From contig NZ_CP058335.1 in NCBI RefSeq assembly GCF_013391105.1, positions 2,232,001-2,296,000 on the forward strand: a stretch of DNA of 64,000 bases, given 5' to 3'. Source of the stretch: Natronomonas salina. GTDB taxonomy: Archaea > Halobacteriota > Halobacteria > Halobacteriales > Haloarculaceae. The notes under the pieces were generated by a model. The model was not told the origin of the DNA. It was given only the letters and a program-made list of their open reading frames with translations, and made no database searches. Positions 17,924 to 21,820 of the stretch are shown piece after piece. Position 1 is the first letter of the stretch. The number at the start of each line of letters is the position of its first letter. The translations under genes and the position numbers were made by a program.

Positions 17924-19780
17924 CTACCGCAGGCCGTCCAGCCGGAACTCGAAGCCGGCGACCGGGACCTCCAGGTCGTGCTCGACGAGCACCCGCGGGT
18001 GGACCTCGCCGACGACGCCGACCGACTCCCCGTCCAGGACGACCTCTGCGGTCCGGCCGTCGATGAACGAGGGGTGCTCGGTGGGCGGCGTCTCGAGGTC
18101 CACCCCGAAGGCGTTCGCCAGCGCCTGGAGCCGCGCCTTGGCGTCCTCGTAGGAGGCGTCGGTCCGCGCGACGACGCCGGCGACGGAGCGGTGCTCGGCG
18201 ACGTTCGTCGGTTCGGACGCGTCGACGCCGGCGACGTGGCCGATCTCCGCGAGGTTCTGCGGGTACGCGCGGTGAGTGTTGTTCTCCAGAACCATCATGA
18301 GCGACGGGAGTGCCCACGTCCGGACGACGGTGTAGTCCTCGCTGTAGGGCTCGGTGATGGTCGGCGGTTCGCGGGCACCGAGAGCGTCGTCGTCCGGGTC
18401 GAGGCCCATCCGGTCGAACAGTTCGCGCTCGCTGGTCATGTGGAAGTTCAGCAGGTCCTCGAAGCCCAGCCCGACGAGCGCGTCGCGGGCGGCGTCCTCC
18501 AGCCGGGAGGTCTCGTGGCGGCCGCCGACCGTGGAGACGTCGGGGTACCGCGGCTCGAGGTCGTTGAAGCCGTAGGCCCGGCCCACGTCGTCGACGACGT
18601 CCATCGGGTGGAGGACGTCGACCCGGTACGGCGGGATCTCGACCTCGTAGACGAGGGGCCCGTCGGCGGCCCCGGTGTCGGTCTCGGTGTCCGCCGCTCG
18701 CACCGCCTCCTCGGCCGGCCCGGCCGTCCGGGTCGCCCGCGAGGGGACGTCCTCCAGTTCCACGTCGTCCTCGGCGGGCTGCTGGTCGTCCGAGCCGTCG
18801 CCGGCACCCTCCTCGGAGACCTCGGCGTCCAGCCCGGCCCGCTCCAGCAGGTCGACGACGTCCTCGCCGGCGATGTCGATACCCAGCGTCGTCTCGATCC
18901 GGTCGTGGGAGACCGTCTTGGTGTCGACGGCGAGGTCCGGCCGGACGAGCTCCTCTTCGGGGTACTCAACGCGGACCTCCTCAACGCGGCCGCCGCGGGC
19001 GTCGAGGGCGTAGCAGACGATGGTCAGCATCTTGTCGATGGTCCACTGGTCGGTCCCCGTCATCTCGATGAGGAGGTCGCGGGAGCCCTCCTCGACCTCG
19101 GTTCGCTTGCCGTTGATGACCGGCGGGAAGGAGAACAGCCCGACGTCGTCGTAGATGGCCGGGTAGCGGTCGAGGCCCTCGACGAGGTGGCCGTAGGTGT
19201 CGCCGGTCGGGTGGGTCTCGAGGACCTCGGCGGGCGTCCGCTCGGCGTCGTCGTCCAGCGGGACGAACCGGTCGTCGTCGGGTTCGACGCCGCGGTACTG
19301 GATGGTCTTCGGCTTGTCGTCGCCGGCGGCCCGACCCTTCAGCATCGTCAGGTCGTGGACGCCGATGGCGCCCTTCGCGCGGTTCCGGCCCATCGTCGCG
19401 TGGAGCTTCTCCTGCAGCTGGATGAGCGAGTCGAGTTCGGTCTCGTCGAGGTCCAGTCCGCGGACGACCGCGGCGGTGACGTAGGGCCGTTCCTCGGGGA
19501 CGGACTCGTCGACCTCGACGACCCACTCGGCGTCGTTGGTCTTCGGGAGGTAGACGCCGCGGTCCTCGCCGTACTGGTAGCGCAGCGAGCGGGCGATGCC
19601 CTCCACGGAGAGGCGGTCCAGCCGGTCGGGGGCGAACTCCAGTTCGAAGTCGCCCTCGTCGGTCTCGCCCTCGAACTCCAGGCCGAGGCTGAACAGGTCG
19701 TCCTTCAGTTCCTCATCGTCCTTCTCCTCCTTGCCTGTGAGCCGCCGCAGCTCGTCGGGGTCGACGTCGACGACGGGCAT
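17924..19780 (-). CDS. pheT: Phenylalanyl-tRNA synthetase beta subunit
   Basis: This is the beta subunit of the alpha2-beta2 PheRS. It carries B3/B4-like editing (LHATMGRNRAKGAIGVHDL), B5 and a synthetase-like domain. The 618 residues are somewhat long for an archaeal PheT because an acidic, low-complexity insert of about 55 residues (322-375) splits the B5 region between LLERAGLDAEV and LVYEVEIPPYRVDVLHPMD. The ATG at 19778-19780 overlaps the pheS stop codon (ATGA), so translation is coupled. The longer upstream frame is rejected because it reads pheS antiphase. Confidence 0.95.
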   Translation of the reverse strand: MPVVDVDPDELRRLTGKEEKDDEELKDDLFSLGLEFEGETDEGDFELEFAPDRLDRLSVEGIARSLRYQYGEDRGVYLPKTNDAEWVVEVDESVPEERPYVTAAVVRGLDLDETELDSLIQLQEKLHATMGRNRAKGAIGVHDLTMLKGRAAGDDKPKTIQYRGVEPDDDRFVPLDDDAERTPAEVLETHPTGDTYGHLVEGLDRYPAIYDDVGLFSFPPVINGKRTEVEEGSRDLLIEMTGTDQWTIDKMLTIVCYALDARGGRVEEVRVEYPEEELVRPDLAVDTKTVSHDRIETTLGIDIAGEDVVDLLERAGLDAEVSEEGAGDGSDDQQPAEDDVELEDVPSRATRTAGPAEEAVRAADTETDTGAADGPLVYEVEIPPYRVDVLHPMDVVDDVGRAYGFNDLEPRYPDVSTVGGRHETSRLEDAARDALVGLGFEDLLNFHMTSERELFDRMGLDPDDDALGAREPPTITEPYSEDYTVVRTWALPSLMMVLENNTHRAYPQNLAEIGHVAGVDASEPTNVAEHRSVAGVVARTDASYEDAKARLQALANAFGVDLETPPTEHPSFIDGRTAEVVLDGESVGVVGEVHPRVLVEHDLEVPVAGFEFRLDGLR

Positions 19781-21300
19781 CAGTACACCACCTCCACGTT
19801 CCGCAGGAGGTCGAGGTCGGCCAGCGTCCCGTGGACGTCGCGGATGTCCTCGAAGCCGTACATCAGCATGAGCAGGCGCTCGAGGGCCAGCCCCCAGGCC
19901 ATGACGTCGCAGTCGACGCCGAGGGGGGTCAGGACCTCCTCGCGGAAGATGCCGGAGTTGCCGATCTCGATGAGCTCGCCGGTCTCGGGGTGCTTGCCGA
20001 ACAGCTCGAAGCTCGGCTCGGTGTAGGGGTTGTAGTGGGGCTTGAACTCGATGTCGGTGATGCCGAACTGCTCGTAGAACTCCGTGAACGTGCCCATGAG
20101 GTCCCGCACCGAGAGGTCCTCGGCCATCACCCACCCCTCGATCTGGAAGAACTCCAGGAGGTGCGTCGGGTCGAGGGTGTCGTTGCGGTAGACCTTCTCG
20201 ACGGAGAAGTACCGCTGGGGCGGCTCCAGCTCCCCGACCTCGTGGCCGGAGAGGTAGCGCATCGACAGCGACGTCGTGTGCCCGCGGAGCGCGACCGCGC
20301 GGGCGAAGTCCTCACTCCACGGCGAGTGGTAGCCGTCGCCGTCCTCGCCGACGCCGTTGCGGTGGGCGTCCTCGACGCGGTCGACGAGGTCCGCCGGGAG
20401 GTCGTCCATCGGCGGGACGTCCAGCGCGAAGCGGTCCCAGTGGGTCCGCGCCGGGTGGTCCTGCGGCATGAACAGGCAGTCGTTGATCCAGAAGTCGGCG
20501 TCGGCGTGGGGGCCCTCCATCTCCTGGAAGCCCATGCCGACGAGGACGTCCTTCACGCGGTTGGCGGTCTGTCTGAGGATGTGCTCCTTGCCGCCGTCGA
20601 CGGTCTCGGCGTCGGCCTCGACGTTGTACTCGGTGAACTCGACGTCCTCCCACTCCCCGGAGGTGAGCAGTTCGGGCGTGACCTCGCCGACGGTCTCGGC
20701 GGCCTCGACGCCCTCCATCAGCGCCGTGACGCCGTCGTCGGTGAGCGTCACCGACCGGACGGTCGTCTCGGTGCGCTCGACGAGGCCGCGGGACTCGAGG
20801 CGGTCGAGGATGCCGCCGTCGATGTAGCCGGCGTTCCCGTCGGCGATGGCGTCGAGGGCCTCCGCCTCGGGGTCCTCGTCGGGGTCGTAGTCCGGCCCGC
20901 CCTCGAGGTCGACCGACACCTCGCCGCCGTCGATCTCGCCGAACCCCTTCCGGGCGAAGTTCGACAGGGCGACGTCGACTTCCTGGCCCTCGAGGCCCGA
21001 GGCGCCGATGAGCCGGCCCATCTCGACGGACTCGTCCTCGGCGCCGGCCTCGACGGCAGCCTCGTAGAGGCGGATCTCGGGGAGCCCCGCCTCCCGGTAG
21101 GTCTCACCCTCGTCGGTGACGGCGACCTCCTCGGCGACGTGCTCGTCGACCGTCAGCAGGCCCGCCTCCTCGAGTTCGAAGGCGGCCCGCGTGACGGCCG
21201 CGCTGTCCTCGCCGAGCTCCTCGGCGAGCTGTGCGACCGTTCTCGTCTCGGTCGCGCTGGCTGCCTCCAGCAGCGCGACCTGCGTCTCGGGTAGTCTCAT
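19780..21300 (-). CDS. pheS: Phenylalanyl-tRNA synthetase alpha subunit
   Basis: This is the catalytic alpha subunit that charges tRNA-Phe. N-terminal winged-helix modules (LLEAASATETRTVAQLAEELG) give tRNA contact, and the class II core follows. Motif 1/2 are around MGFQEMEGPHADADFWIN and the FQIEGWVM strand; HPARTHWD and the motif 3 GLALERLLMLMYG are clear. The length of 506 is typical of archaea. No Shine-Dalgarno sequence is seen before the ATG. The gene is preceded by a Phe-codon leader ORF (21398-21478) and strong alternative hairpins, suggesting its expression responds to charged tRNA-Phe. Confidence 0.96.
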   Translation of the reverse strand: MRLPETQVALLEAASATETRTVAQLAEELGEDSAAVTRAAFELEEAGLLTVDEHVAEEVAVTDEGETYREAGLPEIRLYEAAVEAGAEDESVEMGRLIGASGLEGQEVDVALSNFARKGFGEIDGGEVSVDLEGGPDYDPDEDPEAEALDAIADGNAGYIDGGILDRLESRGLVERTETTVRSVTLTDDGVTALMEGVEAAETVGEVTPELLTSGEWEDVEFTEYNVEADAETVDGGKEHILRQTANRVKDVLVGMGFQEMEGPHADADFWINDCLFMPQDHPARTHWDRFALDVPPMDDLPADLVDRVEDAHRNGVGEDGDGYHSPWSEDFARAVALRGHTTSLSMRYLSGHEVGELEPPQRYFSVEKVYRNDTLDPTHLLEFFQIEGWVMAEDLSVRDLMGTFTEFYEQFGITDIEFKPHYNPYTEPSFELFGKHPETGELIEIGNSGIFREEVLTPLGVDCDVMAWGLALERLLMLMYGFEDIRDVHGTLADLDLLRNVEVVY

Positions 21301-21347
21301 TGGTGCGGTGTGTGCGTGGCTCTCTGTTAGCGGTTCCGACTCGGCGA

Positions 21348-21427
21348 CGGGTTTCCCCGGCCGGCCGCCGGCGGGCGGCCGCCCGGTTCCGCGCCGTCTA
21401 CGCCGCGAAGAAGAAGCCGAACCCGGG
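21348..21427 (-). promoter_or_regulatory. Putative pheST attenuator: three mutually exclusive hairpins
   Basis: In the minus-strand RNA: hairpin 1 pairs CCCGGGTTC (21419-21427, over the Phe codons) with GAACCGGG (21382-21389). Hairpin 2 pairs CCGGGCGGCCGCC (21374-21386) with GGCGGCCGGCCGG (21357-21369), 12 of 13 pairs, loop CGCC. Hairpin 3 is CGGG-GAAA-CCCG (21348-21359). Hairpins 1 and 2 share bases, as do 2 and 3, the logic of an attenuator. No U-run follows, so the readout (termination or translation) is unknown. Confidence 0.55.
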
Positions 21428-21478
21428 GGTCGCGGGGCGGTCGGAGGCGACGCCGACGGCTTCGGGTCCGGATGCCAT
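21398..21478 (-). CDS. Phe-rich leader peptide upstream of pheST
   Basis: This is a 26-codon ORF with ATG at 21476-21478 and TAG at 21398-21400. Four of its last eight residues are phenylalanine (GFGFFFAA, all TTC codons). It lies 97 nt before pheS on the same strand, and a GCTTTTGC box A 26-30 nt before its ATG suggests that the pheST transcript begins at this ORF, leaderless. The arrangement mirrors bacterial pheST/pheA leader peptides, where ribosome stalling on Phe codons reports charged tRNA-Phe. I know of no established archaeal example. Reading frame was checked codon by codon; function is inferred. Confidence 0.6.
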   Translation of the reverse strand: MASGPEAVGVASDRPATPGFGFFFAA

Positions 21479-21501
21479 GTGCGAGCGGTGGTCAGCCGCC
21501 G

Positions 21502-21509
21502 GCAAAAGC
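21502..21509 (-). promoter_or_regulatory. Box A of the leader-pheST transcript
   Basis: Minus-strand CGCTTTTGC preceded by GTAA; about 26-30 nt upstream of the leader ORF ATG. The same kind of box precedes the RFC gene at 31411. Confidence 0.5.
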
Positions 21510-21619
21510 GTTACTCCCGCGTCGCGTGGGCGTGGAATACTGCACGCCTCGGCCGGTGGGGAGGGGAAGAACGTTCGTCACCGGGTCGCGGCCGGACGCC
21601 CCGTCGGCGCCGTCGCCGG

Positions 21620-21820
21620 TCACCGCATCCGACAGAGTTCGACGTACGAGTCCTCCTCGGCGGTGATCCAGCGGGTGGTCCGCTGGTCGTCGCAGACGTC
21701 GGCCGGGTAGATGGTACACTCGGTCGTCCCGTCGTCGTCGGTGGTCGTTCGCGCGCGGAGCTCCGGCCCGGTACCGCGTCGCTCCTCCAGGTCGTCGCCG
21801 TCGAACTCTGTCGGCGTCAT
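21620..21820 (-). CDS. Small haloarchaeal protein (DUF7511-like)
   Basis: This 66-residue acidic protein ends in a conserved-looking block: ECTIYPADVCDDQRTTRWI followed by AEEDSYVELCRMR. That pattern recurs in many small haloarchaeal proteins of a domain of unknown function (DUF7511, name from memory). No membrane segment or catalytic motif is seen. It stands divergent from nothing and upstream of the pheST leader promoter on the same strand, separated by about 110 nt. The function is unknown. Confidence 0.65.
   Translation of the reverse strand: MTPTEFDGDDLEERRGTGPELRARTTTDDDGTTECTIYPADVCDDQRTTRWITAEEDSYVELCRMR

Follow-up and report, generated by a model that had tools for sequence, protein, structure and literature searches.

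Upstream of the phenylalanyl-tRNA synthetase operon pheST, Natronomonas salina and most other haloarchaea very probably carry a cis-acting leader-peptide element that tunes the operon to the supply of charged tRNA-Phe. A short leader ORF, its Phe codons, its promoter and the covarying stems of its RNA are all conserved, and the element is therefore more than a chance arrangement. Conservation does not extend to the bacterial terminator/antiterminator switch, and the comparative data appear to be best read as archaeal leader peptides of a ribosome-sensing, amino-acid-specific kind.

The Phe-codon leader and its distribution

The window, i.e., the whole 64,000-nt stretch of N. salina DNA that was analysed, contains pheS with pheT directly after it (Table 1). 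On the minus strand, the leader ORF sits between pheS and a small ORF downstream of the adenosylhomocysteinase gene. This small ORF is acidic (MTPTEFDGDDLEE..., window 21620-21820), and comparable small ORFs are also found 5' of the leader at two relatives' loci. The initial annotation had described a 26-codon ORF located 97 nt before pheS, in which four of the last eight codons are TTC, and all of these features are borne out in the sequence. The ORF reads from ATG to TAG, starts 178 nt upstream of pheS and ends 97 nt short of the pheS ATG.

Table 1. Features of the pheST leader region, in positions of the window
Feature	Position	Strand	Remarks
pheT, phenylalanyl-tRNA synthetase beta	17924..19780	-	TIGR00471; start overlaps pheS stop
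pheS, phenylalanyl-tRNA synthetase alpha	19780..21300	-	506 aa; PF01409; ATG at 21300
Candidate second promoter CGGAACCGCTAAC, BRE/TATA-like	21326..21338	-	-38..-26 of pheS
P2 outer stem, 3' arm	21346..21351	-	covariation
P2 internal loop, 3' side, GAAA	21352..21355	-	faces YGGA; conserved
P2 inner stem-loop	21357..21386	-	13 nt per arm, one mismatch; hairpin 2 of the initial annotation; covariation
P2 internal loop, 5' side, CGGA	21388..21391	-	YGGA in 117/123 relatives
P2 outer stem, 5' arm	21392..21398	-	begins on last base of stop codon; covariation
Leader ORF, MASGPEAVGVASDRPATPGFGFFFAA	21398..21478	-	26 codons; equivalent ORF in 128/155 distinct haloarchaeal pheS upstream regions
P1 3' arm CGGGTTCGG	21417..21425	-	Gly-Phe-Gly codons; covariation with 5' arm
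P1 5' arm CCGGACCCG	21463..21471	-	leader codons 3-6; covariation with 3' arm
Leader promoter AGTAACGCTTTTG	21503..21515	-	TTTT at -29..-26 of leader ATG, BRE part AAC ahead; predicted leaderless start 21478

A box A at leaderless spacing before the leader ATG had likewise been proposed, and both the promoter and its spacing are kept in 128 relatives. Their promoter logo shows the BRE as CG-AAC and the TTTT at 87-98% per position, with the consensus CG-AACGYTTTT. Such spacing is the norm in this genome, since AT-rich hexamers 5' of candidate ATGs, surveyed over 464 kb of it, peak at the same spacing as the TTTT of the leader.

When 155 distinct pheS upstream regions from haloarchaeal genomes were compared, a Phe-rich leader of 23-36 codons, with the Phe residues towards its C-terminus, was found in 128. 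The typical peptide reads M[AP]xE[PS]...GFGFFFxx, and the last ten codons contain a mean of 3.6 Phe codons. TTC and TTT are mixed (350:113), so that the codon meaning is kept and not the nucleotide sequence. The upstream neighbour genes differ widely and lie on either strand, whereas the leader is always found just 5' of pheS and on the same strand; thus, the leader moves together with pheS. Several haloarchaeal families have trpS a short distance 5' of pheS in the same orientation. With an RNA model based on 74 leaders, one strong match per genome was obtained, at pheS, across the whole haloarchaeal order, and outside the haloarchaea just two marginal matches (E about 1e-3). Among 40 pheS upstream regions sampled from other orders of the phylum, not one had a comparable Phe leader. 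The initial annotation had named a conserved Phe-rich ORF and compensatory stem changes in relatives as the features on which its idea depended; both were found, and the idea survived.

No leader was detected in 27 of the 155 regions, a few of which still fit the RNA model, and the element is therefore dispensable. It is absent in a Natronomonas subgroup and a few other lineages; in this subgroup (seven loci), a same-strand gene is located 62-138 nt upstream of pheS instead. Two loci match the RNA model (42.7 and 98.2 bits) with a broken leader ORF, one lacking the ATG and one with a one-base shift; as both come from metagenome assemblies, they are attributed to error or decay.

The leader also has a probable counterpart on a published map of transcription starts. 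Table 2 of the dRNA-seq study of Haloferax volcanii places a 26-aa uORF (pI 5.9) within the long 5'-UTR of HVO_2948 pheS and marks no additional start at pheS (Babski et al. 2016, PMC4983044). This map supports the location of leader and pheS on one transcript and disfavours a strong start at pheS itself, at least in the growth condition used (PMC4983044). In form, the leader matches the uORFs of that study, which are short, begin where transcription begins and lie 150-250 nt ahead of the main gene; the start itself is mapped only in H. volcanii (PMC4983044). The Haloferax leaders analysed here are 26 aa long and start 212 nt upstream, and the computed pI is 5.9 in three of five checked; their masses are 2792-2850 versus 2772 in the table, the values coming from other Haloferax sequences and not from that of H. 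volcanii itself. Neither the Phe or Trp codon content of these uORFs nor their RNA structure, conservation or regulation is described in that study (PMC4983044). The earlier statement that no archaeal case had been described holds for attenuation, of which no archaeal example was found in the literature searched (subscription papers and preprints excluded), and does not hold for the ORF as such, already tabulated without interpretation for H. volcanii pheS.

Conserved RNA helices P1 and P2

Comparison of each sequence's own arms with the arms of other species singles out three main helices: P1, P2 outer and P2 inner. P1, which joins codons 3-5 of the leader to its Gly-Phe-Gly codons, was overlooked in the initial annotation; P2 is a hairpin that begins at the stop codon. 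Among independent sister pairs taken from the pheS protein tree, own arms are favoured 12:2 for P1 (p 0.013), 19.5:3 for the P2 inner stem (p 0.0009) and 17:1 for the P2 outer stem (p 0.0001). When the sequences were aligned without reference to structure, 87.1% of cells proved to be paired and 19 of the 23 pairs showed changes on both sides, a result matched by none of 500 shuffles. The arms of P1 vary in concert, as in GTCGGACGC/GCGTCCGAC, CTCGAACGC/GCGTTCGAG and CCGAACTCC/GGAGTTCGG. Even the silent third base of a Gly codon varies with the first base of codon 5 in the pheS leaders, with U accompanying GGA and C accompanying GGG (44 CG, 19 UG, 13 UA, no CA).

Folding of the single sequence yields P1 and the P2 inner stem with an energy no better than that of shuffles (z -0.04); at 79% GC, folding energy is uninformative and was discarded as evidence. 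A wider pairing scan gave a few weaker signals besides P1 and P2, e.g., an extra, variable hairpin 5' of pheS in some lineages, and a candidate pairing of the Phe codons with an element near pheS was rejected, as the two do not covary. Another of these signals comes from Haloferax, where codons that follow the Phe run seem to lengthen the P2 outer stem (CTGACCG with CGGTCAG). Nine matches to a P2-like pattern occur elsewhere in the genome.

These helices replace most of the wiring drawn initially, in which three hairpins competed pairwise for shared bases. The first of them, between the Phe codons and GAACCGGG, can still be written in most sequences and may form there, but shows no covariation (R2 x R3 z +0.8; shuffled level in a second test; 2 wins, 2 losses among sister pairs). 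The second is present (21386-21374 with 21369-21357) and corresponds to the conserved inner stem of P2. The third, CGGG-GAAA-CCCG, occurs in this genome only, because its GAAA is part of the P2 loop, where it faces the near-invariant YGGA. The proposed competition of hairpin 1 with 2 and of 2 with 3 is not borne out: P1 and P2, the conserved helices, have no bases in common, and a U-run terminator is lacking. Since P1 and P2 are not mutually exclusive, the switch step is not visible in the sequence.

Possible modes of control

The core of the initial proposal, a Phe-codon leader ORF that lets a ribosome sense the Phe supply before pheST, is plausible and supported by these data. The median distance to P2 is 4 nt from the stop codon and 26 nt from the first Phe codon. 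Judging by its size, a ribosome at the stop codon must open the foot of P2, and one waiting on the first Phe codon would spare P2 and hold P1 open. Loading of a ribosome at the 5' AUG would precede transcription of the Phe codons. When Phe-tRNA is ample, this ribosome would reach the stop codon, where its leading edge would open the foot of P2; after its release, P1 could close 8 nt from the leaderless 5' end and block further initiation on the leader. When Phe-tRNA is scarce, the ribosome would wait on the Phe codons, with P1 held open and P2 left folded, and would thereby keep the start site open and the RNA covered by ribosomes, leading to more pheST.

No T run occurs from P2 to pheS in the window, and none was noticed in the relatives inspected; nor was any other output device recognised. 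For lack of a U-run, the candidate outputs are factor-dependent termination by FttA/aCPSF1 or translational control. The likeliest output would be more read-through into pheST, with the RNA or the polymerase shielded from FttA/aCPSF1-dependent termination. Exclusion of this termination by a coupled ribosome has been proposed as a hypothesis (PMC11616081).

Control of pheS translation would be nearly as likely as this termination route. Ribosomes finishing or waiting on the leader could control re-initiation at pheS, scanning to it or the stability there of one and the same full-length mRNA, with P2 acting as a barrier or a landing structure, and this explanation has a substantial, if less than even, chance of being correct. 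It is consistent with the absence of a terminator-like U-run from the leader and with the long 5'-UTR transcript of H. volcanii, for which no second start is listed at pheS (PMC4983044). The spacing from P2 to pheS varies freely among relatives (39-196 nt), as expected if only the passage of ribosomes counts. Distances of up to 196 nt and the absence of a conserved structure at the pheS start in the pairing scan of relatives speak against a direct masking of the start.

The internal loop of P2 raises the question of a protein ligand. Its letters are far more conserved than the P2 stems, which are kept as pairs and not as sequence: YGGA is found in 117 of 123 relatives, with C as first base in 68 and U in 49, and the opposite side is almost always GAAA or GAAC. 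Such a pattern would suit autoregulation, in which PheRS or another protein binds P2 with its YGGA/GAAA loop and the role of the leader ORF is confined to holding the RNA open. This explanation is nevertheless improbable, as it leaves the conserved Phe codons, their pairing within P1 and the parallel Trp leaders before trpS unexplained.

Still less probable is that the leader represents an independent small gene, acting by nascent-chain arrest or via a trans-acting peptide, with pheS expressed from its own promoter (21338-21326). The promoter-like CGGAACCGCTAAC before pheS is indeed conserved, even in species that have lost the leader, and at its leaderless spacing to pheS it may serve basal pheS expression. 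The constant position of the leader, just 5' of pheS and in the same orientation beside all kinds of neighbours, argues against an independent gene, and so do the peptide variants (DPFFFA, GPFFSA, EPFFD, GFGFVF), which retain only Phe; the pairing in P1 accounts for the N-terminal MASEP motif. No extra pheS start is marked in Table 2 of the H. volcanii study (PMC4983044).

The YGGA of the loop recalls the UGGN bulge of a T-box, and the UUC codons resemble a specifier. Direct sensing of uncharged tRNA-Phe by the leader RNA is nonetheless extremely unlikely, considering that the leader matches no Rfam family at or above the gathering threshold, that the first bulge base is C as often as U, that the fourth base, A, is not complementary to the A73 usual in tRNA-Phe, and that a stop-framed ORF would be left unexplained.

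Trp-codon leaders and known systems

Because the H. volcanii table also lists a 23-aa uORF before HVO_A0127, encoding a tryptophan--tRNA ligase (PMC4983044), the regions upstream of accessory (bacterial-type) trpS genes on haloarchaeal plasmids and genomes were examined. They contain 34 distinct Trp-codon leaders, mostly with WRW (also CWRW, WRWRW and WRWW), one of them upstream of trpS on the H. mediterranei plasmid pHME505. In an earlier search with crudely placed ORF starts, no leaders were seen before prephenate dehydratase, hisS or a first set of trpS genes, the later trpS search being the one that found the Trp leaders. The N. salina genome has no accessory trpS of this type.

In the Trp leaders, codons 2-6 form a stem with the stretch that directly follows the Trp codons. 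Its two arms were compared by a duplex test, as the MAFFT alignment misplaced the 5' arms, and they covary (own versus cross z -7.8, 0/300 permutations; kinship not controlled), e.g., in the variants GTCCACTTCCC/GGGAAGTGGAC and GTCCGCTCCC/GGGAGCGGAC. The leaders were chosen partly by an inverted repeat, which favours pairing as such, but not a difference between own and cross arms. A second stem follows (z -4.9). Trp and pheS leaders thus share cognate codons and a covarying stem from the first codons to the cognate-codon segment. They differ in that the Trp codons are located in the P1 loop, whereas the Phe codons are part of the 3' arm, and in their second stem. In the sequences compared, the identity of the leader codons tracks the downstream synthetase (Phe for pheST, Trp for trpS). 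The two sets probably represent a general haloarchaeal class of leaderless leader-peptide attenuators, for pheST and accessory trpS respectively, although confidence in this generalization is moderate. In this class, the position of the ribosome on the cognate codons would set whether a stem to these codons closes the 5' end of the RNA, and the output would be factor-dependent termination or translation coupling, not an intrinsic terminator.

If this reading is true, the order-wide Phe leader and the parallel Trp leader show that archaea sense aminoacyl-tRNA supply via leader translation. Archaeal transcription–translation coupling, for which the quality-control mechanism is still a hypothesis (PMC11616081), would become directly testable in H. 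volcanii. This species is a genetic model, and a leader of matching length is already on its start-site map.

Control by a ribosome that reads cognate codons of a leader peptide is textbook knowledge in bacteria, and the E. coli pheST attenuator with its pheM leader peptide, like the trp-type systems, works by ribosome-mediated attenuation. The haloarchaeal element resembles these systems in having a short leader ORF with cognate codons before synthetase genes and stems whose formation would depend on ribosome position; the codons of its ORF specify the amino acid of the controlled operon, as in an attenuator. It differs in being archaeal and leaderless, and in a P1 helix that joins the start of the ORF to its own Phe codons. 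Moreover, no base is common to P1 and P2, and a terminator hairpin with a U-run is absent. Mutually exclusive hairpins of the antiterminator versus terminator kind were not found, as only P1 and P2 covary, and since this feature and the intrinsic terminator are both defining, the element is not filed as a bacterial attenuator. T-box riboswitches also sense aminoacylation and often control synthetase genes, but they are bacterial, sense the tRNA directly without translation and depend on sequence elements that the leader does not share.
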